Source: Aphrocallistes beatrix
Lineage: Eukaryota > Porifera > Hexactinellida > Sceptrulophora > Aphrocallistidae
Reading direction: 5' to 3'
NCBI GenBank assembly: GCA_963281255.1
Contig: OY725496.1
Location: 3,635,723-3,699,722 of the forward strand
Length of the DNA stretch: 64,000 bases
Shown: positions 15,944 to 55,065 of the stretch, one piece after another
How the letters are laid out: each line of letters starts with the position of its first letter
How positions within the stretch are numbered: the stretch's first letter is position 1
Program-made: the position numbers and the translations under genes
Notes under the pieces: model-generated
Seen by the model: the letters and a program-made list of their open reading frames with translations, nothing else
Told to the model about the DNA's origin: nothing
Database searches by the model: none

Positions 15944-18900
15944 ATGTCAGGAGCTACTGTGACTACAGTTGCCAAAGTAAGTTCATTAGCTACCCTAAAA
16001 CCTAATATTTCAGTGAGTAAATCCAATCTACATTTTCTCTCTTTCTAGCCAGTTCTCTACAGCTATTTCAGGAGCACTTGTTCTTGGCGAGTTCGTATTG
16101 GTTAGTCTACGATGCATTTAACTGGATACTGTACTAAGGATATTATTTTAAGATGTACAAGTACTTTCTCTTTCCTTTGTCTAATTAACATTGTGAATAT
16201 ATTCAATATAATAGTAAAAAGTCGCTCAGACATGATTTTTTGAAACTGTCCAAAAGCCTCTTACGTATTATAGATGCTCATTCTTCTGTTATCTAGCACT
16301 GACTCTGAAATGTATTGACTACGATTACAAACCAATTAACCTCATTAAAGATGGCGGTGAGCAGGTACGTATTCCACTTAGTTAAATTTTCTACTTGTCC
16401 ACTTTAAGTATAGTGTTATATGGTATCCCATGAAAATACATTGTTATTGATGAATTACGGTTTGTATCATCATAAGTACGCATTTTTCTAGAATAGCGAA
16501 GAATATACTCAGCTCAATGCAATGCAGGAGGTCCCAACGCTTATCATTGATGGACACACCTTAACTCAATCGGTAATGACTTGTTAATTTGAACAAATTG
16601 GCTAATTCACTTTAAAAAATTGTAAATAATTATTTTCAAATAATCAACTATGAATAGCTCTCCATCATTGAATACCTTGATGAAACACGCCCAGGGTTTC
16701 CGTTGATCCCCAAAGATCCTTTCAAGAGAGCTAAGGTATGACTGACCCTTGATGTATCTGCTCATGAACCCAGTTAGTTAGTGTGTGCATCTTACTTAGG
16801 TGAGACAACTCTCCCACATGGTGGCATCCAACATCCAGCCAATACAGGTAGTTTCCATTACTCACATTCGCGATTTTTAGCTATTATTTAATCAATGCTG
16901 TGAATACATAATTCTAATTGATTAAATAAGGAATGTGTATATCTTCACGAGTATTAACATATGCTGGGTATTCGCTCGGTGCTACATCTACGTACTCATA
17001 ATCGTTTGCACTACTACTCTCTACAGTCGCATAGTACGGGATTGAGTCTCTGTCAGGAGCAGTGCCATCTCCCACCACCAGGTAGGGGGTTATCCTGCAC
17101 GGCCATACATTAGAATTGTACTCTATAGAGTTGCTGGAGTGTGTGCTGCTGTGTAGAGATGCCATATCCTCGTAGACTTCATCCTTTCTTGCCACTTTAC
17201 TCTTCAAACACATTCTCCATGCTGAGATCGCTATGACTAGTGCAGTAGCACAGCTCAATACGAGACACGACACGGTAGCTGCAATGCTGCTGTAGATAAC
17301 TATCTGTGTGTTGATGGACAATTCCGGCACTTGGCTAGCAGTGTTTCTGTTTATTTCTTCTGTGTGGTGTGTTGCAGTGCCACCAGTAGTCGTGCACGTG
17401 CCATTCCTATCGCATAGTGAACCGATTGGACACGATACGGAACATGATTTGAACTCACACCCCTCTCCATTGTACATATCCAAGCACTTGCATCTGCCAT
17501 TACTCAAACAAGTCCCATTATTTCTGCAAGAGACCTTACAAGATTTGTACTGGCACACATCGCCATGGAACAGAGGAGGACAGTCGCATATTAAGCTAGA
17601 GTTGCACACCCCACCATTGAGACAACTTGATTGACACGCTTCTTCACACGTTGCGCCTTGCATTCCTTTTATGCATTCACAGCTCCCAACAATGCAAACA
17701 TTGCCAGCATCACAAGCGCTGTTACAGCTGCACTGTCCAGTCCTAGGCTCGCACACTCCTTCTCCATTGCATTGATCACTGCTGCTGCATCTCTCACATT
17801 CTAAGTTTGCTACATAATCACATTTGCCAGTGGCATGCGTGTGCGGACAATCTACTAGTCTCTTATGTGTGCTTGAGTTGCACATCAGATCGCTGACCTT
17901 TTCCTCGTTATTTCCTTTCTTCTTGTAACTCTGCACAGTACTGTCTGATCTAATAAACCCTAACTGCTTACATAGTATATCTGCTTCGTTTGCATCCCAG
18001 GCATCCTTGCATATGTACAGCCAGGTTAGTTGTCCTTCTCTTGTCTGGTCACAAACTTGTGGAAGTTTTCTTCTATCAACGATCCTTACATCTCCGAGCT
18101 CAGCACAAAATTCAGGTACAGAATGTGTGATCGTAAAAAAGATATACAATAATATTAATATATTTGTTTTGCTGACCATGATCGTAGTGTGCTTAAATTA
18201 CTTTCCGAATAATCTCTAAGGTTTTTATACGCATTCGCCAGATCTCTCCTGCACGTCAATGAATCCTTGTAATGTCTTGGAATATCTGCTCAATAGAAAC
18301 TGAAGTCTCGCAAACTATCTAATTGCTCTGTGTTAACATTGCGCGAGAATCTCAAAAACAACTTGATTCAGTGAACCCGGACTACTTTCGAGTATCAGAT
18401 CAATTCAAATTGCTAATTTGGCTATCTAGCTCTATTCTTAGAATATTTTATTTCTAGACACCTTTCTACCTAATAATGTCACTATTACACATAACTGAAA
18501 TAACTCAAAGTTGCTATGTGAACTCATTAATGTACTGAGAGATACTATATGCCACTAAAAATATTTCGATAAGATTGACATTGTGTACAATATTTTTACA
18601 ATATCAAGTGTTGACTATTATATTTATACATCTTCCCGACAGGAAAACCTCCGAGATGCGATATAATTTGGAGAAGGCGCTTGTTTAGGAACTCGGAGGT
18701 TCATAATGTATTATTTACGTAGTAGGACCGTCAATCGGGAGAATGGGTCCGTGTTGTATTTAAATGTTTACCTTTATATATATATATACAGTCGACTCCG
18801 CTTAATAGGGTCACATCGGTCAGAAGACTTAAGTGGAGAACCCTATTAACCGAAAATATTTTGTATTAGCTTCTATGCGTGAGAGCTATTCTGGTCCTGC

Positions 18901-21900
18901 CAAAAGTGGCCCGATTAAGCGGTTGAGCCGATTAAACAGTGACCCTATTAAGCGGAGTCGATGTATATACGTAGTATATATAGTTTCTAGTTATTTCAAC
19001 GAAACTTTTGAGCATGAGTCTGATGAGCGACCTATGATAAAATAATGATATGATCCTGATATTGTACATACAATATCAAGATTTATTTTACAATTTTTTT
19101 TCGATTAAATAATGGTTCACATATAGCACGAATTCGTGCCACTAAATCGGAGATATTCCCAATCCCTAACACATCATTAACTGTTTTACGTATAGTTGTT
19201 GGTACTATTAAGAAACACTGGTGGACAATTAGTCAAGTGGACTAACAGTATTTTCCATAATTGTCAATGAGTTGTGGGTGCCAGGTGGATTATTCAGGAA
19301 CATGTACAATTAATGAGAACTTACAGTGGTTTATTGTGTGCAATATTTTTTGTGTACTTTATTCCCATAATTATAAATCCCAAAGTATAGTTGTATTGAA
19401 GTAGTGAAAATTTTCACATACAATTGTATATTAATGATTACAAATGAAATTATACAATCCCTTATACAAATAGTAGTGACTATCCTATTAAAAAAGTATT
19501 TATTCAAGCAGTGAATTCCCTCAGTTGGGGAGTTAAGTGAGTTCAATATAACTTGGGATGCTTGACCTCGACATTCTCTCTTGCTGTTGTGTCCATAGTC
19601 CAACCCCTTGCCCGACTTTATGACCTTCTGATGCTCGCATGTTGACCTGTACCACCCCCTCTGTCCTAGGAGAACTCATATGTGTGTAGGAGGCTTCTCT
19701 TCTATCAGGTTTAATTGGCGATGGTGTGCCATAGTGCACTTCTGATATCCGATCATTCCCAGCAGGACTATTGCTATTTTGTTGGTCCTTCATATCTCTG
19801 TATACAGAAGCTCTGCGCCCTGCATTGTTCTCGTAATCTTCTTCACAATGTGAGCCATTTCTCTCAGGCCAGGTTTTCTTTGATTTCGGTTTAGGAGTAC
19901 GGGCACATTGCTTTATACATTGGAGACTAAGCAGTAGGATCGACCATGCAATGCAGCAGACAGTCAGTGATAACAGCGCGAGTGGAACGCCTACCAATAT
20001 TGGATACTCAAAGATATTTAGCTCATTTTCCCTGCAAGCAGAGCCATTACTACAGCTGCTAGCACATTCAATATCTGAGTTTGGACATTGCTCACACTCT
20101 GTGTTGTGCATTACATTGAAGCAAGACTCCGTTGTTGTAATATTACACTCAGTAATATCTCGTGCGTTTTCTGTGCAGCTTAGTTTCACTGTAGTAGAGT
20201 TTCGCAACAGTTGAACACTTTCTCCTATTGCACCGACTCGAGAAAAGCCCAGGTCTCTACACCAAATGTTCGCAGCATTCACATCAAACGTATCTGCACA
20301 TATACTAAGCCAATTATCTGTTTTAATCCTCTTCACATACCACAGTTCGTTTAAGCACGTAGTACCCGTATCCGTAGTAGTTAAGCGTTGCCTTACGTGT
20401 GTGCCTAACCCGAGGCATGAACTCCTTATGCTTCTTGCTTGGATCAGCAGAGTGATTAAGAAGAGTTGTGTGATTCTCGTAATCATGTTCAAATGTATGG
20501 TGCTTGAAGTTATAAAGTTGAGTTGTGTGGTGATCTGTGTTGTTCAATTCAGAGGTATTTATAGCAACTTTAATTGAAGATATCGAAAATATTATGGAAG
20601 CTTTTAATGATTTTCTTATTTAGGATTACGTCACTGAATTTTGCGGATTGTTTTTTTTGTAGTTAGTTAAACAATTCCTTATATATTAGTGCTGAAGATT
20701 TGCACAGGAAATCTTTTTTGTATGTGGTTGAACTTAGGGATTTTATTTTGCTTTATGTCCCTATGAAAATGATTAACATTTTCGACATAACATTACTTCG
20801 AATTCTTGTAAACCGTTCTCATGGTTTAGCAGATAGACGATAGAATGACTACACAAGTGGTGATTCTTAATTTTTCTCCTACTCTTGAATAATTTCCCCA
20901 AGAAGAATACTGAAAGTATTTTGTCTGTGTAAGACTGTGGTTTATGTGGGTTCGTTGCTTGCATAATGCCTTGTTTGCAATTTAATATTTCTTCATTTAT
21001 GGATTTAAAATAATTAAAAAACTTAATATACTCGTAGTTTCCAACGTCTGGTATAGTTTACTACAAAATTTATTCAACCACTGCAGTCTTGTTGGAATGA
21101 CAATGATTTGACAATGTTGAATTATACGAGCATGTGTAAGTACTTTTGAATTCATTGCCTTGCACGAGAGCTTTGAGGCAGTTTTGGCTGTTATACTTAT
21201 GGAACTAACAAATACGTTTTAACCTTATGATTAATTAATGTATCTTATCTAAGAGGTGTACTATTTCTGGAAGGAATATTCTGCTAGAATAAATCAACCA
21301 TACAAATAGCTTGTATCGAATGACACCCATGAACTCGTTACTTTAGGGAGGCATTTTATCTGCACTGGAGAATTTAGATATATGCCTCTAGGATCAAATG
21401 ATACTTCTCTCTAGTACAAATCCTGAAACAAATTCGTTTTATTGTAAAACTTTCTTGACTCGAATGGGGTTCAACTATTTCTTCCTGAGTTTGTCACTCC
21501 TACTTTTTGTTGGCTGTAACATTAGTGCGCAAGGTCCCTCCCTACCTCCTTGCAATGTATCAGGCGAGACTCGGTTGATTCCGTACCAGAATTCTTCATT
21601 TCCTCAGATCTGCATCTACATCAACACGAACGTTGTTAACACGAACCTCACAGTCGTCTCCGGCTACTACTACATCTTCATGTGCTATGCCGCTGGCTGG
21701 GGATCTGAGAACCGCGAAGTTTTCTGCCCAGTAGGTGGATATACCGGGCATCAAACTAGGCCAGAAAGACTGAGCATCCCGAATGTAGGAGTACCGAAAT
21801 ATACCAACGTTACCTGCAATGGAGACGAAAACACATTCTTGTCTTGTAGTGGTGGGGAAGTGATCACATCTCAGTGCGACTACGTCTATGATCTTTACTG

Positions 21901-42900: not shown

Positions 42901-45900
42901 TTAATATTTATTGGAAATGTTTTGGCTAGCCTATTACGGAGATAGTGATTTCCTACCTCTACTTCCCAGAACCAATGCTTTTAATGATGAATTTAAATGA
43001 TCAGTTCAGAGACTAAACCACTTTTTAAGAATATAACCTAAAATTTAAATGGTATGAACCTTGTTTAGTTGTCGACATACTCTAATGGTCAACTTAAAAT
43101 AATTCTTACTATACCAGTAGCATATTCTAAACTCATTTTAAAAGATTGTGTGGCTGAGATCTCCTGGTGCCATTTTAAGCACTATGAAATATTAACTGTA
43201 ATAAAGTCAATGAATATTATGTACTATCTTTCTGAATATCAGATTTCACTGAGGAGAGATTACTTAATGAGCACACAAAATAATATGTCTAATTGAATGT
43301 TCTTCCTTAACGATATTATATAAGTTTATACGAATACTGTTATTAGTAATTCCAAACAGTATGCGAGAGAAATATCATTATTTTGGAATTGTATTACATT
43401 TATTAACGTTATCCAAATTATACGTGTTTTGTGGGAAATGCGATTCAGGAAGAAACTCAGCGGGATCTCCTGTTGAAGATACACTACAACTCATTAATAC
43501 CTGTTGGAACAGCACTGAAAAGCCGGATTGGAATCGTGCCTGCTTTGATTCCCGGATGGAAATAACTGTTGCTACTAGTTTATTCTGCCATCAGCTAAGA
43601 ACCACTATTAATTCTGAACTTAATTTTACGGTATTAACTTGCACAGGCTATGAACTGCCTCTTCAAGAGTGTAACTCCACTCTTACCACTAACCAATGCG
43701 ATTTTATTTCTGGGGTTTTACACGGGTGTGATATTTGCGGAAATGATAGCAAATGCCTTTATTCGGGAGGATGTTCTATAACAGAGACAGTGGGATGTGT
43801 TTGTCAAACTGAGTGCTTTCAAATTCTGAATAAAAACAGAGTAGATGTGGAAGTTGGATCATCTTCAGCTGGAGTGATCATCTTAATTCTAGTTGTTCTC
43901 GCACTATTCAGCATAACGGTCATTCTTTTCATCTGTTTGAAAGTGAAAAGAAAAGAATCCTCACTTTCGAATTCAATACATTCCAAACATAACTATAGTA
44001 CTATACCAAAAGATACAGATGTCCAACCTAAAAACAACCGAATAGGCAATTCTCAACAAAGGTTTAACTCAGGGAATTCATCTTCGAATACTTCCTCCCA
44101 AAGGCAGGCTATGAACAGACCTGGTACAACCAATAATAGCGAATTCAATGGTAGCATTGATTCCATTGAACATGAAGAGTCCAGGCCAGTAAATCCCTTC
44201 TCCCCTCCACCAAATAAGCCTAAATATCGATCACAGTTACAAAGCAGCACCAAGTACCACCCCACTACTTCCACACCAATTCTCACGCGTAGAAAAGCTA
44301 CAACCACAATTCAACACGGTAAAGATATGTACCTGTCCTTATTTTCTGGTGTTATTCCATTTGAAATCACAGACCCTTCTATAAGGCTAGAGCGTAGCAG
44401 TTCTACTCTGAAAGATCTGACATGCTCTGAGAAACGATTTGTCAATCCTCCCCATGATATGAAATCCCTTCGTAATTCCACCATATCTGTAAACCAAATT
44501 AACAAACTGGATTTGGTGATTCAGGAGGAGATTGCTCACGGTCAGTTCGGGATCGTGTATCGAGCATTGTACACTCCTGCTGAAGGGGATCCTATTCTAG
44601 TCGCTGTCAAAACGCTGAAGAATGAATCGAACAAGGAAGCTGAAACCGCGTTTCGAAGGGAGGCACTGATACTAGGTCAGTTCCAACACCCGAATATACT
44701 TGCACTTATCGGATTTGTCAGTGTTTCGCCTTATATGATCGTTACTGAACTTCTCAAATCCGAACTAGGACATCTTTTGGAGAAACTCAAAGACTGTCCC
44801 GTAGACAAATGGAACTTACCTCCACTGCTATTGAACTTCTGCATCGATATAGCAGTCGGTATGAGCTATCTAGCTAACATGAAAATCATACATCGTGACT
44901 TGGCGGCACGTAATATATTGGTGGCCAAAGATTTATCCTGTCGCATTGCCGATTTTGGACTGTCTCATCAGCTTACAGATGATGAGGGCGATTATTACAT
45001 TTCAAAAGGCGGCCAGATTCCGTTGAAGTGGAGTGCTCCCGAATCTGTTTTTCATAAGAAATTTTCTGAAAAATCGGATGTTTGGTCATTCGGAATGACA
45101 ATGTATGAAATTTGGGCATTGGGTGCGAAACCATGGGGTGGTTTGACAAATGAAAAAGTTTTGAAACATTTTTCTGATGGTGAGAAACATTTCCCTCCCA
45201 CGGGCTGCAATAGAGAGGTGTACATAATAATGTTGAAAACATGGCATAGTGACCAAACTCAGCGACCTGATTTCGCACGAATTTTTAAAATGCTTGATAA
45301 GATACAGCTCCCTCCCCCTACTCCAGAGTCAGACCCCGCCCTGATATTAGGGAATGATCATAAACTTGCTGCAGACCTGTACAAGAGCTTACGAACATCT
45401 TAAATTAATAGTTAAACCTCCATAAGCAATGATTGATAGGTCCTATGAGAATTCTTCTTGAAACTTTATTGTGGAGATATGAGGAATTTATTTGATGTAT
45501 AAATGCATGTACTATATCCAAACTCAGTTAATTAAATACTTGTTGTTGTATACGTAGATAATATATCGACTAATGTAAGGGGCACAGTTTAGTAATACAT
45601 ATTATTAACCTATGTGATTATAAACATTCACCAAAAATATATCCGTATAGCAACACAGAGTAGAAAAATTATTTAACAGTAGATTCAAATTCCACACTTA
45701 GAAAACGTAACATGGATTATTCTTAATATATTTACATATTTATCTACATATCTGCATTTTTTCGAGCTCGGGTCACTGTAACTGGATAAGTAGAATACAT
45801 TTTCTGAGATGTTTTTCATATACGTATACGTAATGAGCAGGGTTGATCCTTCATTCTCCGATATTGATTAGTATACTGCTCTACTGAAAATACTATGATA

Positions 45901-48334
45901 GAGACTTTATAGACTCTTCTCATACGCTATATCATCTTACATTATATATTTCAATAAAAAATATTTGAGGATATTGGGTAATGATCCATATTGAATTTAT
46001 TGAATGCTTCGGTAAGCAAACAGTGGATGCTCGTCAAAGGAATTAGGCTGAGAGTGTACAATATTTGCCTCCTATGTCCAGCTGCAATACCCACGTATAT
46101 AAGTGCATGATGGCAATAATTATATTCACACGCACAGAAATGAATTTGAAGAGCATTATTTTAATAGCAAACTTTGTTCTATTCGCTTCAGCCCAAATGG
46201 ATGTCTATGACGAGACAGGTGCAACTAAAGAAATAAAGAATTTTTTTTCCAGTTCAAAAAAAGTAACGATCCCCCAGAATATGCTTACTATAAACTATGC
46301 TGTGATAGCGGTGGCGGCATGTATGTTTGGCTGTGGTTGTGGCGCCTTTGTTCTGTGTCTGTGTTTTTTTATTTGTAATGAGTTTATCAAAAATAGGGAT
46401 AAACTAAGAGGCAAGAAACATCGTTTTAAAATAGTTTATGTTAACCCAAGGTGTATAATGAAATCGTTTCGGAGAGGAAATTTTACCAGAGAAGCAAATA
46501 AGGATAACCCTGTGTCTGAGACTCCATTGACTGCTAGACTTTCTGAATCTCACAGTAACACGAGCCCTAGATACACAGCAGATTCATCCAAAACAATTAC
46601 CCCATATGCATCCAGACAGAGTGACGACAGTATCGAGAACGGTTTGTGCTTGACATATGCTGAGGCTGTTAGCTCAGCAAGCCTCGATCCAATCCCATAA
46701 TCGGAAAGTTATCCCTACTCAAGAACTAACAAGTGTTTATTATTGATTGATCCTACATTAAAACCCGAATTAGACTAGGAAAGATAGGCATTACTATAAA
46801 TAGAATTGACCCCTTCTGGTTTGACTAATTCGAGTTTTAAGATAATAATAATAATAGGTATTGCTCCTCTGTATTAAATGACTTAAAACTACTTCTGTAG
46901 AATAATATCTGGTTATGTTTGTTTGTATTGATTAAAAAAATTATCTTTTAATTATACACTCCTCAACCTCATTAAAACAATTTTCCAAAATTGGGACTAA
47001 TATAAACTCATGGAGATAGCAATCTTGATTGTTCTCATCGTAATTTAAATGTTTGCTGACTATTTTACATTGTGGAAATGCCCCGTATTTGCCATTGAGA
47101 TATCTCTCTAATATTTGTTCAAAAGTTTAATATATCTATTATTTTATTAGAACCTTCGTGTGTTGCAGAAGGTAGGCAAAGACAGCAGTCAGGAATGGGG
47201 GCATTTCTGGATAAAGAGAGGCTTTGATGGTAAGTTACAAAGCATTAAAGGACTGCACCTTTTCATGATCGGAGGTTTCTTTAAAATAGTGGAGTGGAAT
47301 GCGTAGTTCCTTTCTTTGAATAACTTTAATATCACAATTTTTTAATACTTACAAGTACTAAAAAATGTTTTCTGAATTGTTCGTTTAATTTCCAATTCAA
47401 AACACAAAATATGTCACATATGTATAGTCGAGTAATTCCTCCTTTTTTTGGAGCAAAGCTTAATTTAAAAGAGCGATAGTTAAATCAAGTAATTAAAATT
47501 AACCCTTGTTTAAATTGTAATTATGAAATAACTTATTATAGCTCTGGAAGTAACACTGAAAGAAACAGCTGGAAAGTATTGTGTCGGAGATGAAGTGAGT
47601 CAACTTAGCAATGTTGATTTAATGCATTGAACATAACACCATTTCTGATCTAATTTGCAACTAAAGCAATTGAAGACTCCTCAGGAGGAACTGTTGATCA
47701 GTTGGCTTTTCAAAACATCAACACGGGCACGGGATTATTATTAATCATCCTAATTTAGATTTCATTTATAGTCAAATAAGAACGAAGACCCATTTGAAGG
47801 GTTGCGATAAGGCGTTGGAAGTTGGAAGACTCTGAGAGGCATGGAACTTGCTTTACAAACCGTTCCATTCATTTATATTATAATATTGACTTTCATGAGT
47901 TTTCCTGAAAATACCACAAATATTGCACATATCGATTGACATGAGATAAGACTATAGTTTGAGTGTAGAAGTTGATCATATCGAAATACGTATAAAAATA
48001 CAACCTTCCTGAGTTATCTAAAATCGGAGTATAGTCAAGTAGCTAACATCCAAATTTAGAATTCGAGTTAGTAATCTATCTATTTATTAGATCACAATGG
48101 TTGATCTCTGTCTCGTGCCTCAGATTTTCAACGCAAACAGGTATGCTACTATATCTGATTACTCCACAATCTATGATGGATGATGTAATCAAAATATAAA
48201 TTAGGTTCAAAGTCGAGTTGGAGCCATACCCCATCATCCGCAGGATCGCAGGAGAGCTTGAGGTACAGGATGCATTCAAAGCAGCTCATCCCTTCAATCA
48301 ACCAGATTGTCCAGAAGATCTCAAGACTTCCTAG
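15944..48334 (+). CDS. GSTZ1: Glutathione S-transferase zeta / maleylacetoacetate isomerase, ten exons with one 30-kb intron
   Basis: The enzyme isomerises maleylacetoacetate to fumarylacetoacetate in tyrosine catabolism, using glutathione. Exons are 15944-15976, 16049-16100, 16297-16364, 16492-16572, 16658-16735, 16800-16847, 47151-47229, 47542-47594, 48091-48140 and 48205-48334; all junctions are GT-AG and in phase, giving 223 residues (human 216). Exon 2 has the zeta-class active-site motif [13 protein letters not shown] (family SSCSWRVRIAL). Exon 4 carries the cis-proline [11 protein letters not shown], exon 5 [11 protein letters not shown], exon 6 [16 protein letters not shown], exon 7 NLRVLQKVG, exon 9 MVDLCLVPQ and exon 10 the C-terminal [12 protein letters not shown]. 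Exons 6 and 7 join exactly where vertebrate GSTZ1 reads IQPLQNLSVL, so the two blocks belong to one gene despite 30,303 bp between them. Confidence 0.87.
16914..18179 (-). CDS. Kinase-less SRCR/EGF type-I receptor 1
   Basis: A 421-residue membrane protein with a signal peptide (about 1-20), a divergent SRCR domain (about 22-128; [17 protein letters not shown] is the SRCR core), four EGF-like cysteine modules (about 130-262, for example [19 protein letters not shown]), one TM helix (about 293-320) and a 100-residue tail without any kinase. The tail has SH2-docking type tyrosines: YEDM (Tyr336, PI3K p85-like YxxM), YATV, YVDV (Tyr396) and YVNT (Tyr407, a Grb2-like YxN). It is intronless and nested antisense in the GSTZ1 intron. 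The ligand is unknown; a signalling role is inferred from the tail. Confidence 0.83.
   Translation of the reverse strand: MVSKTNILILLYIFFTITHSVPEFCAELGDVRIVDRRKLPQVCDQTREGQLTWLYICKDAWDANEADILCKQLGFIRSDSTVQSYKKKGNNEEKVSDLMCNSSTHKRLVDCPHTHATGKCDYVANLECERCSSSDQCNGEGVCEPRTGQCSCNSACDAGNVCIVGSCECIKGMQGATCEEACQSSCLNGGVCNSSLICDCPPLFHGDVCQYKSCKVSCRNNGTCLSNGRCKCLDMYNGEGCEFKSCSVSCPIGSLCDRNGTCTTTGGTATHHTEEINRNTASQVPELSINTQIVIYSSIAATVSCLVLSCATALVIAISAWRMCLKSKVARKDEVYEDMASLHSSTHSSNSIEYNSNVWPCRITPYLVVGDGTAPDRDSIPYYATVESSSANDYEYVDVAPSEYPAYVNTREDIHIPYLIN
18222..18229 (-). promoter_or_regulatory. TATA box of receptor 1
   Basis: TATAAAAA on the minus strand lies 50 bp upstream of the ATG at 18179, consistent with a very short 5' UTR. 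Confidence 0.5.
18789..18963. mobile_element. Pogo/Tigger-like MITE, copy A
   Basis: It starts CAGTCGACTCCGCTTAATAG after a TA and ends with the complementary ATTAAGCGGAGTCGATG before TA. The 175-bp interior matches the element at 36733-36902 (shared CCCTATTAACCGAAAATATT and AAAAGTGGCCCGATTAAGCG). TA target duplication and CAGT..ACTC ends are typical of pogo-type MITEs. Confidence 0.7.
18964..19532. other. Intergenic within the GSTZ1 intron, nothing recognised
   Basis: AT-rich spacer downstream of the stop codon of receptor 2, with no coding or structural signal noticed. The region 18230-18788 on the other side of the MITE is likewise featureless apart from a short TA run before 18789. Confidence 0.45.
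19533..20492 (-). CDS. Kinase-less SRCR receptor 2
   Basis: A 319-residue type-I membrane protein: signal peptide (about 1-24), SRCR-like domain (about 28-135; [19 protein letters not shown] core), a short cysteine-rich remnant where receptor 1 has EGF modules ([18 protein letters not shown]), TM helix (about 166-191) and a 127-residue tail with no kinase. Tail tyrosines include YENN (220), YRDM (231) and YTHM (269), two of them YxxM motifs, and YIEL near the C-terminus (315). It is intronless. A TATAAATA lies about 70 bp upstream of the ATG. EGF modules appear to have been lost relative to its neighbours. Confidence 0.8.
   Translation of the reverse strand: MNMITRITQLFLITLLIQARSIRSSCLGLGTHVRQRLTTTDTGTTCLNELWYVKRIKTDNWLSICADTFDVNAANIWCRDLGFSRVGAIGESVQLLRNSTTVKLSCTENARDITECNITTTESCFNVMHNTECEQCPNSDIECASSCSNGSACRENELNIFEYPILVGVPLALLSLTVCCIAWSILLLSLQCIKQCARTPKPKSKKTWPERNGSHCEEDYENNAGRRASVYRDMKDQQNSNSPAGNDRISEVHYGTPSPIKPDRREASYTHMSSPRTEGVVQVNMRASEGHKVGQGVGLWTQQQERMSRSSIPSYIELT
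20556..20563 (-). promoter_or_regulatory. TATA box of receptor 2
   Basis: TATAAATA on the minus strand about 70 bp upstream of the ATG at 20492. Confidence 0.45.
20564..21463. other. Divergent spacer between receptors 2 and 3, nothing recognised
   Basis: AT-rich. It should contain the promoter of receptor 3, but no clear TATA box stands out there. Confidence 0.4.
21464..22957 (+). CDS. Kinase-less SRCR/EGF receptor 3
   Basis: The frame is open from 21398; the ATG at 21464 is preferred because it directly starts a signal peptide ([18 protein letters not shown]), giving 497 residues. Then follow a degenerate SRCR-like domain ([17 protein letters not shown], ending CDYVYDLYC), EGF-like modules including [15 protein letters not shown] and the longer [22 protein letters not shown] (a canonical EGF), a Thr-rich stalk, a TM helix rich in Ile/Val/Cys and a tail of about 160 residues lacking a kinase. 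Tail tyrosines include YTAV, YEVM (YxxM), YEIE and YLALL. It is intronless and is the only plus-strand member among the first four receptors. Confidence 0.82.
   Translation: MGFNYFFLSLSLLLFVGCNISAQGPSLPPCNVSGETRLIPYQNSSFPQICIYINTNVVNTNLTVVSGYYYIFMCYAAGWGSENREVFCPVGGYTGHQTRPERLSIPNVGVPKYTNVTCNGDENTFLSCSGGEVITSQCDYVYDLYCTPCTTASDCLGGSNSMCSMGLCRCIGCANGACYAGGCLCNQGWEGDTCAQRICVPECENGGVCQDNATCSCPFPYTGPNCLMNLTCNPGCLNGGQCVADFSISTFRCSCTQGYGGSQCQSLLTTPTQNPTTVATDQAENTTSVQTTVAILPVSIGDLSYVLIISILIPVLCCIGLLVIILIVIVCLFVCFTVLFMKRNDKNDTQLKASGFENISLNPYDLERKDTIYTAVDEAAMIDHATPPALPPENKNEQYEVMRSQSLEKKTSIYEIEDPVLEKKTFRHKLTEKQTVNKVITEDLREGSEYSNNPEERKDEISSPAESPYLALLGNSKSQEPTAKAYSNPSIVDDSNA
23081..23130. repeat. Short inverted-repeat MITE fragment with GGCGTAGCC end
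   Basis: AGAGGCGTAGCCAG faces GGTTACGCCACT about 25 bp later. The same motif pair occurs at 39205-39268. This end sequence is common in small DNA-transposon relics of animals. Confidence 0.45.
23359..23402. repeat. Hairpin, 20-bp arms, one mismatch
   Basis: GAATTCGAGTGTGCCCCACC faces GGTGGAGCACACTCGAATTC with a spacer of a few bases. The sequence between 23140 and 23455 is GC-richer than its surroundings and probably belongs to the same small mobile element. Confidence 0.55.
23591..24802 (-). CDS. Kinase-less SRCR/EGF receptor 4
   Basis: A 403-residue frame; the Met at codon 11 (24772) directly precedes a signal peptide ([15 protein letters not shown]) and may be the true start. It has an SRCR-like domain ([21 protein letters not shown]), two to three EGF-like modules ([29 protein letters not shown]), a short Thr/Ser stalk, a TM helix ([20 protein letters not shown] region) and a 130-residue tail with no kinase. 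Tail tyrosines include YDSI, a YYYIE cluster, YEIM (YxxM) and YKDS. It is intronless and convergent with receptor 3. Confidence 0.82.
   Translation of the reverse strand: MFHSVHLILAMVRKLFFILFCLNILRQGFAPSATSCQTEGTVRLMKPTDYPQLCNEVNGGNQWNFFCNAFDSMEESDVFCNVLGYLRSIDSGSMSTVTRGDGQNKIKNLQCNGNESKITDCSYEQMVVNCVVAKGVQCASCNESSQCRGGECTMDGVCICNETCQNGGYCFVGMCICTSGFQGRGCAQCSPPCQNGGVCTANATCQCSGTFHGQRCELAIVNTTSTTSISTQSVITEIAIKDMSLLLIATVTPSILCIFIIVLISFTLIIVVISVAISRKKMDAMKKTIVKLSESTSASTNMSLHTNVPSLSAEMQKRPEYELDYDSIPNHHYYYIEAGNESQLKGNESASYEIMDLYKDSVQNVENGNMTRTNTEKKSGGESNDVKEARHSTAYVIGNVNEL
24803..26499. other. Divergent 1.7-kb spacer with a piggyBac-like MITE
   Basis: It contains the small TTAA-flanked element at 25155-25279. 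Otherwise AT-rich sequence without recognisable genes; short open frames here have no family resemblance. TTTAAATA about 30 bp before the ATG of receptor 5 may serve as a TATA-like element. Confidence 0.45.
25155..25279. mobile_element. 125-bp piggyBac-like MITE
   Basis: Both ends are TTAA followed by a terminal inverted repeat, C(T/C)G(T/C)AGAATGCCCA: TTAACTGTAGAATGCCCA on the left and the complement of TGGGCATTCTGCGGTTAA on the right. TTAA is the piggyBac target site. The interior shows extra self-complementarity around GGGGACACTGTGTCCCC. No coding sequence. Confidence 0.6.
26500..27507 (+). CDS. Kinase-less EGF-type receptor 5
   Basis: A 335-residue type-I membrane protein: signal peptide ([17 protein letters not shown] from the second Met), a short cysteine-rich ectodomain with one clear EGF-like module ([18 protein letters not shown]), no SRCR domain, a TM helix around 113-140 and a long tail of about 190 residues. 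No kinase. The tail has YQNM, which combines the YxN and YxxM docking rules, YTSM, YSDI and YPYV, plus a proline-rich stretch ([10 protein letters not shown]) that could bind SH3 or WW domains. Intronless. Confidence 0.8.
   Translation: MNYNLVMKFLTCFLCCILGIVYANNLTVNVCMGQNECWSRECNSTSQVPSPSCVIDVCTGENMICENGGLCVLDSCFCSNNFYGSRCQFLASTLGERPGSTGDSITPTGILGLEIGYPLYLSLIIPSAAISAFIVCHLCLFCWVPTMCACRRNARKITSEKMHTTIISNPMQSYQADTPSAGSRVNLHTVHHGNRQESASHEYSDIDADQNEASTGVFYQNMCHNTHSLPNRPLPPPPAWPPEMVNNMCMLPSTSPPAFAKLIDSDSDQYSYPYVTFSSTRSRDSTFPRCNVRGPAGCGRKEEVDRGENEVVDSQKSGYTSMAPKYVFPNGEALV
27508..27951. other. Spacer, nothing recognised
   Basis: A 444-bp gap between two co-oriented receptor genes; AT-rich, no coding signal, no clear TATA box. 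Confidence 0.4.
27952..29877 (+). CDS. Receptor tyrosine kinase with minimal ectodomain
   Basis: 641 residues: signal peptide (about 1-25), an ectodomain of only about 50 residues with a few cysteines and no EGF or SRCR module, a TM helix (about 71-95), a long juxtamembrane region with YESF, YEEV and YEAF, then a tyrosine kinase (about 344-610). Catalytic landmarks are present: VAVK lysine (375), HRDLAARN (from 470), DFG (490), WAAPES and [14 protein letters not shown]. The glycine loop is GHGNFA, with Ala where the third Gly is usual. The C-terminal tail has the [15 protein letters not shown] motif shared with the other kinases of the cluster. Intronless. Confidence 0.87.
   Translation: MFSLMNYSIYLIVFILANINFVRVSCESNFAGCFAWNSMNISQTLALNTFSNISCNLADFTCIVQTCFLNDGFGIFLLVGFSTLVLLIILITCAVCFGLPCMCISFCILRRKHSTVPSPLISRYTRRGRDLSFQNSNLGTIDRSIILSETSDHNKSQISDSIMYESFHLGEHTMSNSAKNPGKHIKEMKNAKPKYSRQKKSSTTAEPLPTSTSTTGLTIGNDKIGDEGYGFDGDSVVYEEVLTIYEAFEKGKDLNQENDSMSRMALDTNVKKDWKTATIVLSNSERGSVGNNYDCVFRDAPKQSSGETTYFRRESQFMNPSTDISTIFNDMADLKIREINRKTLSFDEKLGHGNFAIVYKGTWASNYGDIPVAVKVINKHNQTDQLVGVLREAAAMAQFDHPNILKLLGVVTLGNPCVIVSELMKDQLVYFLYKLNRSPIAKSKFPSLLLKFCSDICLGMEYLAGMKFVHRDLAARNVLVAMNLNCRIADFGLCRELKKELDYYKASGGSIAVRWAAPESVFYQRYNEQSDVWSFGMTMYEIWTLGVKPWHTLTTEAVIDILLKHSLPTPPTGCPPNIYELMIEIWNQDPESRPSFKEIKHKLKAIKLPTPTSAEPAHIPGNDPALAKDMYPTLQKKYAHK
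29878..30683. other. Spacer with a TATA promoter for the actin-like gene
   Basis: Around 30215-30350 there is GC-richer sequence with local inverted repeats (GGTCCGGGG against CCCCGAAGGACC-like words), probably a small repeat. The rest is AT-rich. Confidence 0.4.
30463..30470 (+). promoter_or_regulatory. TATA box of the actin-like gene
   Basis: TATAAAAG lies 221 bp upstream of the preferred ATG, leaving a leader of about 190 nt with no obvious intron. Confidence 0.45.
30684..31814 (+). CDS. Divergent actin-like protein, predicted poor ATPase
   Basis: 376 residues from the ATG at 30684 ([20 protein letters not shown] aligns with the actin N-terminus; the frame is open 30 codons further upstream). 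It aligns end to end with actin: [68 protein letters not shown] and the C-terminal HRKCL. Two nucleotide-site positions differ from conventional actin: the DSGDG loop is DSGHG (Asp157 to His), and the helix carrying catalytic Gln137 reads LTSELAAF, with Thr at that place. The DNase-binding loop is also altered. It is intronless, on the plus strand in the GSTZ1 intron, between two receptor kinases. A specialised or regulatory actin is inferred. Confidence 0.85.
31815..32723. other. Convergent spacer, nothing recognised
   Basis: AT-rich 0.9-kb gap between the 3' ends of the actin-like gene and the next receptor kinase. No coding signal. Confidence 0.4.
32724..35000 (-). CDS. EGF-repeat receptor tyrosine kinase
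   Basis: 758 residues: signal peptide ([19 protein letters not shown]), five or so tandem EGF-like modules (about 22-150; [31 protein letters not shown]) and no SRCR domain, TM helix (about 160-190), a long juxtamembrane region with YEAM and YNEP, then the shared FREINPDTL segment and the kinase (about 463-735). The glycine loop GMGEFG is canonical, followed by [12 protein letters not shown] (from 588), DFG and [14 protein letters not shown]. The tail ends with [15 protein letters not shown]. It is intronless, with a TATA box 55 bp upstream of the ATG. Confidence 0.88.
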   Translation of the reverse strand: MLRFSVTLIILTFCSVSGSFVCTNDSICFGTSTCGSGGACICSFPYFGERCQLKNCSTPCFNRTCDLSSGMCGCPAPRYGNACQFIGRYCPAQCLNGGVCNYTNGLCLCSTGYSGNICQNKLCVPACQNGGICQPTGECRCINGTQGDSCQFQFREINLLRFPVIFGVSVGLIGLCCCVISYTISILFVQTICSLRRRSRRKKESFENSHQLPGPRNNSSIRTINHVPRLPTVLLEDAIVEESPPPVPTRNPLINGDYCDSFENLAGIDTGNTEMIAYIDPETLSTSPNRTYSTLFDDPYGDEHCFTNPNTFNRASFQAAIHQNDEKRGSQSEVKSKPSLPPKPKIKFGGSEIHRNSHLLSKDENIIYEAMEGEDKELYNKYSILNSTDKIDEQCVVLSQEERNSLPRGGNINPPRPKSRRHKIKTRYFKENPIYNEPSSSLDKLFDQMSALNFREINPDTLIISDHLGMGEFGIVYKGTWISKIGEVPVALKMLKEKSDEAKKIVLFQEAIIMGQFSHPNILRILGIVSNKEPFSIVSELMKMGMLDFLHMVRNSELDVNKFPPLLLRFCREIAAGMQYLSSKKFVHRDLAARNILIANNYTCRIADFGMAREIINNSDYYSSTGGNIPIRWTAPEALFHQMYSEKSDVWSFGMTIFEIWSFGLNPWYNLNNEEVIRAIHSKCVHPPPAGCPRDIYFVMVEALKHDPKKRCIFTQFRQMLEAPIVLSRPETGTEADIPGNDPEYAKNLYMDLQTKYS
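35048..35055 (-). promoter_or_regulatory. TATA box of the EGF-repeat kinase gene
   Basis: TATAAAAG on the minus strand, about 55 bp upstream of the ATG at 35000. Confidence 0.5.
35056..37309. other. 2.2-kb spacer with a pogo-like MITE
   Basis: Contains the MITE at 36733-36902 and, from about 37040, sequence homologous to the 3' flank of the next-but-one gene (39815-40040), the edge of a tandem duplication. The remaining AT-rich sequence shows nothing. Confidence 0.45.
36733..36902. mobile_element. Pogo/Tigger-like MITE, copy B
   Basis: Perfect outer ends CAGTCGACTC and GAGTCGACTG, each bordered by TA. The 170-bp interior matches copy A at 18789-18963. No transposase. Confidence 0.75.
37310..38671 (-). 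CDS. Kinase-less SRCR/EGF receptor 6, a kinase-deleted duplicate
   Basis: 453 residues (the Met at codon 5 may be the start of the signal peptide). Signal peptide, SRCR-like domain (about 22-140), four to five EGF-like modules (about 142-285), TM helix ([20 protein letters not shown]), and a short tail. From the start codon to about codon 425 it is nearly identical to the receptor kinase at 40043-42541. It then jumps, within the tail, to sequence homologous to the last codons of that kinase gene, and the shifted frame stops soon after. About 1.2 kb, including the whole kinase domain, is missing. Tyrosines YSSI and YYSM (YxxM) are kept. The frame is clean, so it may be an expressed decoy-like receptor. 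Confidence 0.85.
   Translation of the reverse strand: MLFDMDRIQLLIYLTFLSYVTSDTCTSVGMVRVQNLNLTGTDKTYLQVCLNHTNGNKYWSFICSQDMNGIIWSVDNHHVWCRSRSLLYEGFSSVQITSGMYGQGELKIANVDCNRTINEGIIDCYYNTTLDECHYLNGLECSPCFNTTDGNNCNPPGICTVNEACRCTSSCENGGFCDQGRCQCRYPYEGESCQYRACVESCLNNATCDNSTGTCKCIQQYYGPNCELVQCLSGCNSNQECCNLTGMCECKSSYFGPNCEFQNCSMSCPVNQTCDTSNGICRMDSTDCIDCSNCTDNCTDNNMLNDIPRHYIWISAGVTFVLTLCILIAGLICCVVMLIKWFAARKRSQSQKNVLYAENGSSTENVATTNSIEMDQTGLKSKRKLKKNAPYSSIDNTRDVRPSTPDPVGSNEKYYSMLSSPHHYSEPDQEIKRIEWVNNDDVYTKTNQMIHST
38728..38735 (-). promoter_or_regulatory. TATA box of receptor 6
   Basis: TATAAAGA on the minus strand about 64 bp upstream of the ATG; the same element in the same position precedes the duplicate at 42541. 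Confidence 0.45.
38771..38821. repeat. Palindrome with about 24-bp arms in the upstream region of receptor 6
   Basis: AATGTAATCATTAGTTGTAG and the following ACAC face their near-perfect reverse complement with a 3-base loop (AAC). In the duplicated upstream region at 42640-42690 mainly the right arm is recognisable, so the palindrome is specific to this copy or has decayed in the other. Confidence 0.55.
38822..40042. other. Spacer between duplicated receptor genes
   Basis: 38822-38990 is homologous to 42690-42960 (duplicated 5' flank) and 39815-40042 to 37040-37309 (duplicated 3' flank). Between them lies unique AT-rich sequence and a small GGCGTAGC inverted repeat at 39205-39268. Confidence 0.5.
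39205..39268. repeat. Small inverted-repeat MITE with GGCGTAGC ends
   Basis: ATCAGTGGCGTAGC faces GCTACGCCAATGATACTGAT across about 30 bp containing a C-rich run. The end motif is shared with 23081-23130. Confidence 0.5.
40043..42541 (-). CDS. SRCR/EGF receptor tyrosine kinase
   Basis: 832 residues and the most complete architecture in the cluster: signal peptide, SRCR-like domain (about 22-140), four to five EGF-like modules (about 140-285; [14 protein letters not shown]), TM helix (about 310-335), a tyrosine-rich juxtamembrane region (YSSI, YTML, YDEA, YVIY, YETF), the FREINPDTL segment, then a kinase at about 550-815. The glycine loop [18 protein letters not shown] (from 670), DFG and [14 protein letters not shown] are all intact. 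The tail keeps GNDPSLVK but stops before the LY..L half found in the other three kinases. It is intronless and parent-like to the kinase-deleted copy at 37310. Confidence 0.89.
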   Translation of the reverse strand: MLFDMDKIQLLIYLTFLSYVTSDTCTSVGMVRVQNLNFTGPINSYLQVCLNHTNGNKNWSFICSQDMNGIIWSVNNRHVWCRSRSLLYKESKSVEITREMHGEGELKIANVSCNRTINEGIIDCYYNTTLDKCHYLHGLECSPCFIGENNCNSPGICVNESCRCTSSCENGGFCDQGRCQCRYPYEGESCQYRACVESCLNNATCDNSTGTCKCIQSYYGPNCELVPCPSECNSNQECCNLTGMCECKSSYFGPNCEFQNCSMSCPVNQTCDTSNGICRMDNTDCIDCSNCTDNCTDNNMLNDIPRHYIWISAGVTFVLTLCILIAGLICCVVMLTKWFAARKRSQSRKNVLYAENGSSTENVATTNSIEMDQTGLKSKRKLKENASYSSIDDTRDVRPSTPDPVSPNQKYTMLSSYHHYSVPDQEISAHSEGIDPIYDEAYTVFLDGEKPEEQLYVIYSKINESALSSRHATIVLTQEERNSVHLQQEDEIIYETFIKQTGRKDTSTKFFLQTSEYSEPPRDLPKIFDRMSSMKFREINPDTLTKQNYLGSGEFGTVYKGLWKTGEETVDVAIKELNQSSKEDVKTAFMKEAAIMGQFSHPNILRLLGILSLSDPFMIVTELMKAELLDVLLSFKTSGIDLNKVQLVLLKFCREIGRGMEYLASKECVHRDLAARNVLLSKNMVCKISDFGMSREFKQNYNYYKSSGGLIPVKWTSPEAIFYQRYTEKSDVWAFGMTMFEIWSLGYKPWHNKSNQEIVNMMQAQEVIAPPTGCPQDIYEIMLETWKYDADERCTFTEVCQLLKKDFVFTLNKSDDPEYVLGNDPSLVKSFH
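42542..43360. other. Divergent spacer between two receptor kinases
   Basis: Carries the duplicated 5' flank shared with 38672-38990, with TATAAAGA near 42598, and TATATAAG at 43317-43324 for the plus-strand gene. No coding signal otherwise. Confidence 0.45.
43317..43324 (+). promoter_or_regulatory. TATA box of the SRCR-only kinase gene
   Basis: TATATAAG begins 44 bp upstream of the ATG at 43361, the same motif and distance as at 46096-46140. Confidence 0.5.
43361..45403 (+). CDS. SRCR-type receptor tyrosine kinase
   Basis: 680 residues: signal peptide (about 1-25), a divergent SRCR-like domain (about 28-125; [16 protein letters not shown], ending [11 protein letters not shown]), a short cysteine-rich patch instead of EGF repeats, TM helix (about 172-195), a Ser/Asn/Pro-rich juxtamembrane region of about 190 residues, then a kinase (about 385-650). 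The glycine loop is AHGQFG, with Ala where the first Gly is usual; [12 protein letters not shown] (from 511), DFG and [14 protein letters not shown] are normal. The tail ends [15 protein letters not shown]. Intronless. Confidence 0.87.
   Translation: MREKYHYFGIVLHLLTLSKLYVFCGKCDSGRNSAGSPVEDTLQLINTCWNSTEKPDWNRACFDSRMEITVATSLFCHQLRTTINSELNFTVLTCTGYELPLQECNSTLTTNQCDFISGVLHGCDICGNDSKCLYSGGCSITETVGCVCQTECFQILNKNRVDVEVGSSSAGVIILILVVLALFSITVILFICLKVKRKESSLSNSIHSKHNYSTIPKDTDVQPKNNRIGNSQQRFNSGNSSSNTSSQRQAMNRPGTTNNSEFNGSIDSIEHEESRPVNPFSPPPNKPKYRSQLQSSTKYHPTTSTPILTRRKATTTIQHGKDMYLSLFSGVIPFEITDPSIRLERSSSTLKDLTCSEKRFVNPPHDMKSLRNSTISVNQINKLDLVIQEEIAHGQFGIVYRALYTPAEGDPILVAVKTLKNESNKEAETAFRREALILGQFQHPNILALIGFVSVSPYMIVTELLKSELGHLLEKLKDCPVDKWNLPPLLLNFCIDIAVGMSYLANMKIIHRDLAARNILVAKDLSCRIADFGLSHQLTDDEGDYYISKGGQIPLKWSAPESVFHKKFSEKSDVWSFGMTMYEIWALGAKPWGGLTNEKVLKHFSDGEKHFPPTGCNREVYIIMLKTWHSDQTQRPDFARIFKMLDKIQLPPPTPESDPALILGNDHKLAADLYKSLRTS
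45404..46095. other. Spacer, nothing recognised
   Basis: AT-rich 0.7-kb gap between co-oriented genes; no coding signal apart from leader-like open frame after 46065. Confidence 0.4.
46096..46103 (+). promoter_or_regulatory. TATA box of the stub receptor gene
   Basis: TATATAAG begins 44 bp upstream of the ATG at 46140. This supports 46140 rather than 46065 as the start codon. Confidence 0.45.
46140..46700 (+). CDS. Stub type-I membrane protein, seventh kinase-less member
   Basis: 186 residues from the ATG at 46140, which opens a signal peptide ([19 protein letters not shown]). The ectodomain is only about 35 residues, without cysteine modules. A TM helix rich in Cys/Gly ([18 protein letters not shown]) and a basic then Ser/Thr-rich tail with YTAD, YASR and LTYAEAV follow. 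It has no kinase, SRCR or EGF domain, and no YxxM. It is placed in the family by position, orientation, promoter and general layout, so membership is an inference. It could be an eroded receptor or a small adaptor-like partner. Confidence 0.6.
   Translation: MNLKSIILIANFVLFASAQMDVYDETGATKEIKNFFSSSKKVTIPQNMLTINYAVIAVAACMFGCGCGAFVLCLCFFICNEFIKNRDKLRGKKHRFKIVYVNPRCIMKSFRRGNFTREANKDNPVSETPLTARLSESHSNTSPRYTADSSKTITPYASRQSDDSIENGLCLTYAEAVSSASLDPIP
46701..47150. other. 3' end of the giant GSTZ1 intron, nothing recognised
   Basis: AT-rich sequence leading to the acceptor at 47150 (pyrimidine-rich ATTTTATTAG). Confidence 0.45.
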
Positions 48335-54057: not shown

Positions 54058-55065
54058 TCATGACAGTTTGGCTCTATTTCCTGACGAATTTATGTAGCTG
54101 GGGAGCTTGAGAGCTCGCTTGAGAAGAGACACCCATGCCTCATATTCATCTTGCTCGTATGCATACATGCTGTAGATGATTCCTGGGAAGTAGAGCGTGA
54201 AGCAGAACTTCTGCTTGTACTTGTGCTCTTTCTCTTCTAGCCAGAGCACCTGTGCTAGGTCGAGGGTTCTGATCAACTTAGCGTCGTTACATTTCAGATC
54301 TGAAGACGGACGCCCCGTGTAGTATGAGAGCTCGCGACGGTCCAGCACGAACCATCGTCGCTTCCAGTTTTTGCGAATGTGTCCCCTCTTGTGCAGGAAC
54401 CCCGCTTTGTAGATTGGACTATAAGATCCTGAAATATCTGACTCCTCTATCTTGAAAATACTCTCTTTAAACCTTTCAAGGGTGCTATTTTCTTTACCGA
54501 ATGACGCAGGATTATATATCTCATACTCGTGAGGCTCATTTATGTTACGTTCCATAGGGTACTTGAGAATAAGCGCGAGGTTTGGCCTCCCAATTCGTGG
54601 GAACTTCCTAAAGTGCGCTTTGAACTCTTCTATGGTGTACACATGGAGTCCGTACTCCAGGTTGAGAGTGGCCACGTTGAACTTGACTGGAAATTCGAAG
54701 GCACCACCCCCTGACCAAACAGAAAGTGTGTATAACTCATTATCTGGATTTTGAAGGGAATCTGAGGGTCGAAGCAGGTAGGAGCCCTCTAGGTTATGCG
54801 TTTTTAAGAAGGCAGAAGCCATACTTCTGTTCATGTTAGGATGGAACCATTCAATTTGCGTAAGAGAGTTGAGTGGATAGGTCTCGTCATCCGAATCACT
54901 GTGGGTGAGTTCTCTACTTCTAGAACAGGAGACTCGGTTGAGTGAGAACTTCTGCATTCCAGTCGTTGTAGAGCAGGTAGGTATTGGAGTGAGGGCTTTC
55001 CTTTCTACTACGAAACTCATGCTTTGCACAGGAAACTCAGGAATAGTATTACAATCTTTAGCCAT
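54058..55065 (-). CDS. SH2-PH adaptor, DAPP1/Bam32-like
   Basis: A 335-residue cytosolic adaptor with an N-terminal unstructured region (1-70), an SH2 domain (about 74-172; WFHPNMNRSMASAFLK, GSYLLRPSDS with the phosphotyrosine-binding Arg) and a PH domain (about 217-320; AGFLHKRGHIRKNWKRRWFVL, whose KRG..K..KRRW basic loop suits PI(3,4,5)P3/PI(3,4)P2 binding). The linker ERNINEPHEYEIY resembles the DAPP1 segment that follows its SH2 domain. DAPP1 links tyrosine-kinase and PI3K signals in vertebrate leukocytes. It is intronless here and longer than human DAPP1 (280 residues). It lies about 6 kb beyond the receptor cluster. Confidence 0.85.
   Translation of the reverse strand: MAKDCNTIPEFPVQSMSFVVERKALTPIPTCSTTTGMQKFSLNRVSCSRSRELTHSDSDDETYPLNSLTQIEWFHPNMNRSMASAFLKTHNLEGSYLLRPSDSLQNPDNELYTLSVWSGGGAFEFPVKFNVATLNLEYGLHVYTIEEFKAHFRKFPRIGRPNLALILKYPMERNINEPHEYEIYNPASFGKENSTLERFKESIFKIEESDISGSYSPIYKAGFLHKRGHIRKNWKRRWFVLDRRELSYYTGRPSSDLKCNDAKLIRTLDLAQVLWLEEKEHKYKQKFCFTLYFPGIIYSMYAYEQDEYEAWVSLLKRALKLPSYINSSGNRAKLS

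Follow-up and report, generated by a model that had tools for sequence, protein, structure and literature searches.

Among the described systems, the receptor tyrosine kinases (RTKs) of animals, with lineage-specific expansions in sponges and also in choanoflagellates, come close to the receptors encoded in a 64,000-nucleotide stretch (hereafter the window; C10:3635723-3699722) of the 100.5-Mb, 28-contig genome of the glass sponge Aphrocallistes beatrix. Both are type I proteins with a modular ectodomain and a kinase that carries HRDLAARN and DFG motifs and a tandem YY. In the sponge locus, however, an SRCR ectodomain is fused to the tyrosine kinase, kinase-less relatives occur, the genes are uninterrupted and the kinases of the wider family bear signs of gene conversion. 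The SRCR fold is also that of SRCR superfamily receptors (MARCO, SCARA5, DMBT1, CD163, CD5/CD6), yet here one divergent SRCR domain (two SRCR-like domains in some genes on contig C9) is joined to EGF-like modules and a tyrosine kinase, and sequence identity to the solved structures listed is 10-25%. CD5 and CD6 also have tyrosine tails that are phosphorylated by other kinases. Two of the eleven window genes (named g1 to g11, the suffix K denoting a kinase), g8 and g9K, recall vertebrate paired receptors (KIR, LILR) in being clustered paralogues with a shared ectodomain and unlike tails, but they set an enzyme against a YxxM tail rather than an inhibitory motif (ITIM) against an activating (ITAM) adaptor, and the other ectodomains of the window show no such close sharing. 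Brassica SRK/SLG likewise combine a receptor kinase with a neighbouring kinase-less paralogue whose ectodomain is nearly identical, although those proteins are unrelated and SLG is mainly secreted. Finally, CD28, ICOS and CD19 resemble the kinase-less members in lacking a kinase of their own and having cytoplasmic YxxM, while the ectodomain here is of SRCR/EGF type and p85 is a putative partner.

In the literature, more than 600 SRCRs were reported from the Halichondria panicea transcriptome, with EGF named among their partner domains (PMC8242945), and the shuffling of RTK extracellular domains has been described in a paper that does not contain 'SRCR' (PMC8662651). The main texts of two glass-sponge genome papers (PMC10280926, PMC10282587) mention neither 'SRCR' nor 'tyrosine kinase'. 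Among the papers surveyed, subscription papers aside, titles and abstract openings yielded no SRCR-tyrosine kinase fusion and no kinase conversion in animal RTKs, and with text passages added none was seen to report this family; an earlier description is possible.

We read the locus as a set of SRCR/EGF RTKs together with kinase-less co-receptors that would couple to PI3K, and give this reading about an even chance of being right. It builds on features computed from the genome: the receptor architecture, the descent of the kinases, the kinase loss in g8, an excess of YxxM in kinase-less tails, one conserved kinase-less tail, p85-like genes and kinase conversion. So far, the SRCR/EGF kinase family is known only from apparent glass sponges.

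The window cluster and its family

An earlier note on this DNA had proposed eleven type I membrane proteins, four with complete tyrosine kinases and seven without, and both counts were confirmed, as were the positions. Eleven uninterrupted open reading frames (ORFs; Table 1) each have a hydrophobic N-terminus (judged by eye), a cytoplasmic tail and, by hydropathy, one strong transmembrane (TM) stretch. Pfam finds a full PK_Tyr_Ser-Thr domain (PF07714) in g6K, g7K, g9K and g10K (259-284 bits, E 6e-77 to 1e-84), with HRDLAARN and DFG in 4/4 and, by eye, a tandem YY in the activation loop. With kinase domain, ectodomain and single TM on one chain, these four are, judged by domain and catalytic motifs, RTKs. 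Of the solved structures matched by the g9K sequence, the best 60 of 2488 are EGFR, Eph, Abl, Fes and a Src-Abl ancestor.

The same note had held that all eleven share SRCR/EGF modules, which we could not sustain: g6K and g11 have neither, and g11 showed no relation to the other ten members in pairwise BLAST. SRCR is supported in six members, above the Pfam cut-off in g1, g2 and g4 and by alignment with these in g3, g8 and g9K; it does not exceed that cut-off in g3, g8, g9K, g10K or the kinase-less relative L029k, and does so in the further relative L030k. A hidden Markov model (HMM) built on 14 family SRCR domains matches all seven window proteins expected to have the domain; the window supplied 7 of the 14, so the model is partly circular for those seven. 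By this model, which includes their own rows, the SRCRs of g3 and g10K reach 84 and 47.5 bits. In g10K, a cysteine alignment adds to the HMM match and the structure model attains a predicted local distance difference test (pLDDT) value of 36 only; this receptor may carry a degenerate SRCR. The g9K domain, missed by Pfam, has an SRCR fold in its predicted structure. EGF-type modules are supported in seven proteins (g1, g3, g4, g5, g7K, g8, g9K), only g1 and g3 exceeding an EGF cut-off, and an NCBIfam scan of 4 proteins gave below-cut-off matches only. Pairwise BLAST links g1, g2, g3, g4, g8 and g9K via SRCR/EGF, g5 to g3 and g4, and g7K via its EGFs; g3 is homologous to g4 over 227 amino acids (aa; E 3e-24).

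The cluster extends past the window, with L029k lying ~44 kb upstream on the same contig, and belongs to a larger family. A survey of 28 loci around chosen strongest kinase matches of the genome (98 ORFs of at least 150 aa) yielded at least 29 family kinases, including the four in the window. The same receptor type occurs in clusters on C10 (4.58 Mb), C15, C9, C11 and C12 and as singletons on C10 (4.05 Mb), C3 and C16, and SRCR lies above the Pfam cut-off on the same chain as the kinase in 10 of the 16 family kinase ORFs that were scanned elsewhere in the genome.

The relatedness of the kinases is borne out by their shared descent in a kinase-domain tree. In this tree of 39 domains, some on long branches, 27 in-genome family kinases and the proteins P0001-P0003 separate (99/97) from 9 non-family kinases of the same genome chosen as outgroup; two family kinases, L019 and L028_5064, did not match the catalytic-motif pattern and were omitted, though they count among the at least 29. 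g9K groups with P0001-P0003 (100/99), followed by g7K (97/83), and g6K joins weakly (90/63). g10K falls with genes of C15, C3, C16 and C10-4.58 Mb (98/95), and the window cluster therefore holds two subfamilies. The best relative of g9K is P0001 from the hexactinellid Oopsacas minuta; two ENA proteins, P0002 and P0003, are equally close (46-47% over near the whole length). As far as a search with g8 shows, P0002-P0004 are not in the window's own genome, and they are probably from glass sponges. A search for SRCR-kinase fusions elsewhere (E up to 1e-20) returned four proteins, one from the sponge genome itself (P0019) and three kinases without a listed SRCR; being based on shared 5-mers, it is a weak negative.

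Elsewhere in the genome, the SRCR receptor kinase L019 (C15:2638000-2647999, ORF 3244-5718, +) reads HRYLSARN for HRDLAARN in a kinase domain otherwise 96-97% identical to those of its neighbours, and is likely a pseudokinase. The receptor kinases on C9 (L026-L028, C9:90000-119999) bear SRCR-like domains, in some cases two. Several of their kinase matches break off around profile position 213-219 and others continue across stops, which suggests an intron near that position, unlike the uninterrupted genes of the window. A huge canonical SRCR array at C4:4.93-5.82 Mb accounts for roughly 100 (by eye) of the ~150 PF00530 rows listed, and kinase-domain matches lie within it at C4:5.54-5.575 Mb.

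Kinase loss and kinase homogenisation

The DNA of g8 and g9K is alignable at 90.5% (blastn) over the 5' flank, ectodomain, TM and early tail; the alignment then breaks and resumes at the extreme end of the g9K kinase gene and in the 3' flank (87%). Between these blocks, ~1.15 kb of g9K is replaced by ~40 bp in g8, whose ending is in a shifted frame. Read from this alignment, g8 arose as a tandem duplicate of g9K and had its kinase removed by a single internal deletion, kinase loss being the simpler reading because P0001-P0003 carry a kinase. Synonymous divergence of the pair is ~0.07 over the ectodomain, with nonsynonymous to synonymous ratios (dN/dS) of ~1.0 (SRCR), 0.55 (EGFs), 0.3 (TM) and 0.76 (tail). 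The open frame of g8, its coding gaps of 6, 3 and 3 bases (all multiples of 3, beside flank gaps that include 1, 2, 7 and 10) and a coding divergence of 5.3%, lower than the 10.0% of the 5' flank (p 0.001) though not clearly lower than the 7.5% of the 3' block (p 0.15), favour a gene that was kept rather than one in decay.

Gain and loss of whole modules, by which the earlier note had distinguished the members, is thus seen directly in this pair, one deletion removing the kinase. The paired-receptor pattern that it had invoked would fit only these two genes, which share their ectodomain while one is without a kinase; no close ectodomains were found among the other window members. Descent by kinase loss is visible only in the 3' block of g8 and is shown for g8 alone; when the window was searched by tblastn with all 11 proteins, nothing matched outside the ORFs (E 1e-4), and hence no kinase remnants were seen beside the kinase-less genes.

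For the sister clusters, ten pairs were compared (seven close pairs and three with window kinases) by the fraction of same-amino-acid codons that bear a synonymous difference in the kinase versus the rest of the gene. Four pairs showed a stark contrast (p 5e-6 to 2e-30): C12 (5/255 vs 71/191), C10-4.58 Mb (11/254 vs 92/183), C11 (6/236 vs 43/62) and C15 (7/246 vs 43/321). Two less recent pairs behaved alike (C15, 26/201 vs 67/145; C10, 22/223 vs 46/90), and no contrast was seen in g7K/g9K (77/130 vs 81/130), g6K/g7K (76/121 vs 54/93), g10K/L014 (94/147 vs 72/100) or the C9 pair (48/171 vs 76/255). The four contrast-free pairs argue against kinase codons being constrained in general. Kinases that are nearly identical synonymously while their own ectodomains diverged anciently point to recombination, because selection on the protein alone should not skew synonymous sites in this way, indicating gene conversion in the four sister clusters. 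In the C11 pair, inverted copies ~4 kb apart, 710 bp are 100% identical; the tract starts inside the kinase domain, ends in the C-terminal tail and is bordered on both sides by diverged, alignable receptor sequence, and this is the shape that gene conversion gives a tract. In the pairs examined on C12, C10 and C15, it runs to the stop codon or to at most 17 codons from it, and for these pairs capture of the kinase end by another receptor is also possible. No recent conversion was seen among the window's own kinases. By these codon counts, the sister clusters reverse the paired pattern, with kinases homogenised and ectodomains diverging.

Tails of the kinase-less members and neighbouring genes

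Searches with g1, g8 and g2, whose sensitivity limits the count, added two kinase-less members: L029k (C10, 597-aa frame) and L030k (C20, 441-aa frame). In the other clusters, the SRCR HMM matched 15 ORFs, 13 of them with the kinase motif; in L019 the motif of the kinase domain is altered, and L028_3_977 represents the first part of a kinase gene that the locus border divides, a 724-aa open frame joining both parts. A search for kinase-less homologues elsewhere gave 13 proteins, two of them the window's own (g1 and, judged by length and contig, g3) and the rest EGF-bearing, and it was insensitive in that it missed P0004, itself part of the query.

The nine kinase-less tails (g1-g5, g8, g11, L029k and L030k; 1182 aa), shuffled within each tail, hold 11 YxxM where 1.8 are expected (0/2000 shuffles as high). 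At least one YxxM is present in 8/9, g11 being the exception, against 1.67 expected (0/20000 shuffles). Phosphorylated YxxM is the classic site for the p85 SH2 domains. In kinase-bearing tails (18, hand-picked from 24 as non-redundant), YxxM is near chance (5 vs 3.1) and YxxL, YxxI and YxxP are in excess, while 12 other window ORFs have no YxxM excess (3 vs 3.7, 500 shuffles). ITAM-like spacing is absent from the kinase-less tails and occurs 8 times against 0.8 expected in the 18 kinase tails. An ITIM signature was also considered for the kinase-less tails and dropped, as it is not enriched (4 vs 2.6 expected).

L029k aligns with P0004, which is also kinase-less, from the leader to the final residues, and between their tails 8/9 tyrosines are identical versus 45/121 other residues (p 0.003). 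P0004 and the g9K relative P0002 are each listed on a contig of 1,808,754 bases, probably one and the same; kinase-bearing and kinase-less members would therefore be linked in both genomes. Two p85-like genes are present: C12 bears an SH2-iSH2-SH2 ORF and C2 a split version, both with SH2 domains above the Pfam cut-off.

Table 1. Receptor genes of the window, features within them and a neighbouring adaptor gene (positions in the window; aa, amino acids; TM, transmembrane stretch).
Feature	Position	Strand	Evidence
g1, kinase-less receptor, SRCR + EGFs + TM + Tyr tail, 421 aa	16917..18179	-	SRCR_2 28.7 bits (cut-off 27); EGF_2 31.2 bits (cut-off 22.1)
g1 TM	17226-17288	-	hydropathy
YEDM in g1 tail	17163..17174	-	motif scan
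g2, kinase-less receptor, SRCR + TM + tail, 317 aa	19536..20486	-	Pfam SRCR 26.5 bits (cut-off 26.1)
Two YxxM in g2 tail (YTHM 19677-19688, YRDM 19791-19802)	19677..19802	-	motif scan
g3, kinase-less receptor, SRCR (21548-21907) + EGFs + TM + tail	21464..22954	+	EGF 21.7 bits (cut-off 21.5)
YEVM in g3 tail	22658-22669	+	motif scan
g4, kinase-less receptor, SRCR + EGFs + TM + tail	23594..24772	-	Pfam SRCR 31.4 bits
YEIM in g4 tail	23738-23749	-	motif scan
g5, kinase-less receptor, weak EGF + TM + tail	26518..27504	+	EGF_TEN 21.4 bits, below cut-off; BLAST to g3, g4 E ~1e-5
YxxM in g5 tail (YQNM, YTSM)	27154-27165, 27454-27465	+	motif scan
g6K, receptor tyrosine kinase, short ectodomain without known module; kinase 28981-29760	27952..29874	+	PK_Tyr 263 bits
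g7K, EGF receptor tyrosine kinase; kinase 32841-33611	32727..35000	-	PK_Tyr 265 bits; EGF_TEN 44.9 bits (under its cut-off 65)
g8, kinase-less receptor, by alignment a tandem copy of g9K, 449 aa; SRCR 38237-38602	37313..38659	-	89% aa identity to g9K over 427 aa
YYSM in g8 tail	37421-37432	-	motif scan
g8 deletion junction	~37338-37379	-	DNA alignment to g9K
g9K, SRCR-EGF receptor tyrosine kinase, 828 aa; SRCR 42107-42472; kinase 40136-40909	40046..42529	-	PK_Tyr 284 bits; predicted SRCR fold; full-length relatives P0001-P0003
g9K segment (late tail + kinase) missing in g8	40110..41260	-	blastn blocks stop and resume here
g10K, receptor tyrosine kinase; putative degenerate SRCR 43436-43741; kinase 44516-45292	43361..45400	+	PK_Tyr 259 bits
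g11, small TM protein with tail, without SRCR/EGF/kinase; putative cluster member	46140..46697	+	no Pfam match, no BLAST relation
Adjacent SH2-PH adaptor gene, perhaps a downstream partner	54061..55065	-	SH2 28.7, PH 52.8 bits; PH nearest DAPP1 (1fao), SH2 nearest SHP2

Besides the adaptor gene listed in Table 1, an ORF of GRB2 type (L033, C10:3607500-3610500) has an SH2 domain flanked by two SH3-like parts (by eye); it sits between L029k and the cluster, at 27 kb upstream of the window. A full-length, uninterrupted actin gene, with cytoplasmic actins as best matches, sits mid-cluster (30684-31811, +). Ahead of the cluster (1485-8460, +) lie a MatE transporter ORF and an ABC transporter, the latter recognised by eye in frames that overlap, likely with introns. 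A sigma-70 promoter scan was discarded as meaningless in animal DNA.

Possible functions of the locus

In the co-receptor reading, we infer ligand binding, trans-phosphorylation and PI3K docking. The SRCR/EGF part would bind ligand, and a catalytic member or a cytoplasmic tyrosine kinase would phosphorylate the YxxM tails of the kinase-less members in trans, whereupon p85/PI3K could dock at the phosphorylated YxxM and make phosphatidylinositol trisphosphate (PIP3). Kinase-bearing members, by contrast, would recruit another set of SH2 proteins via YxxL/I and YxxP. The repertoire may turn over by tandem duplication, kinase loss and fast ectodomain divergence, with gene conversion keeping the kinase uniform in sister clusters. 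The cue sensed may be a microbe, self/non-self or an ordinary signal for growth or adhesion.

Several observations weigh against this reading. The glycine loop is off consensus, with Ala as the third Gly in g6K and without a match to the pattern used in g10K; the ancestor of the kinase-less members other than g8 may never have had a kinase; and in the g9K tail tyrosines are conserved at 6-7/11 positions against 40-43% of other residues in the three relatives, with no clear preference. About nine motif patterns were tested on several sets after the tails had been seen, although 0/20000 shuffles allows for correction. Besides, YxxM is also a possible AP2 sorting signal (YxxPhi), and the iSH2 matches of the p85-like genes (22.9-28.2) fall below the Pfam cut-off of 31.5. 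As for a role in recognition, g9K and L029k, the latter kinase-less, appear to be retained one-to-one across genomes, as developmental receptors are. Conservation of this kind, alongside monomorphism, was what the earlier note had named as speaking against its proposal, and this objection applies in part.

The genes might form an ordinary, conserved RTK family of glass sponges that serves development or growth control with no special role towards microbes or non-self, which we regard as unlikely. g9K has full-length relatives of the same architecture in Oopsacas minuta and two ENA records, L029k has its kinase-less counterpart P0004, and no SRCR dN/dS significantly exceeds 1: it is ~1 in g8/g9K (0.091/0.089) and 0.6-1.6 among 10 pairs of five C15/C3 genes, positive selection being significant in none of 11 pairs and no one-sided test falling under p 0.2 (one genome). 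Yet at least 29 kinases in unequal clusters, recent kinase loss, conversion and one likely pseudokinase argue for rapid turnover of much of the family. The g9K ectodomain is also only 38-47% identical to those of P0001-P0003, versus 73-75% for the kinase, though an ectodomain less conserved than the kinase is common for RTKs.

Alternatively, the kinase-less members could be decoys or endocytic scavengers that take the same ligands, do not signal and use YxxPhi for AP2 uptake. SRCR proteins are often scavengers, g8 has the whole g9K ectodomain without the kinase, and kinase-less tails hold more Yxx[ILVM] as a whole than expected (27 vs 11.6). What makes this option unlikely is that the excess is mostly M, with YxxL at chance (4 vs 3.7) and neither YxxI (5 vs 2.6) nor YxxV (7 vs 3.5) significant, whereas AP2 sites are expected to favour L; moreover, the tail tyrosines of L029k are conserved outside the YxxM site too.

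An assembly artefact (collapsed or mis-polished repeats) behind the homogenised kinases would fit the exact identity of the inverted C11 copies but is very unlikely, given that the C12, C10 and C15 pairs keep scattered differences and every gene retains its own ectodomain and flanks. Least probable of all, the kinase-less genes would be decaying leftovers of receptor kinases, as the deletion and frame-shifted final residues of g8 might suggest, against its open frame, in-frame gaps and reduced coding divergence and the conservation of L029k/P0004 across genomes, with tyrosines conserved more than other tail residues.

Returning to RTKs and PI3K-coupling co-receptors, the locus may have a self/non-self or microbe-sensing role. 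A wider proposal, which we hold to be doubtful as a whole, is a glass-sponge recognition system of SRCR kinases and YxxM co-receptors with which a syncytial animal would recognise self/non-self or microbes, the kinases being kept uniform by conversion, the ectodomains diversifying and the enzyme-less partners being made by kinase deletion.

In vertebrate immunity, enzyme-less receptors and their kinases mostly belong to separate gene families, whereas here both fall within one family and one step, the kinase deletion, is readable in the DNA. Glass sponges are described as syncytial (PMC5684314). How they would distinguish self from non-self, or detect microbes, at a shared cytoplasm is a question for which the locus offers testable handles, namely the mix of kinase-bearing and kinase-less members, the docking motif in kinase-less tails and the recombination signature in sister clusters.

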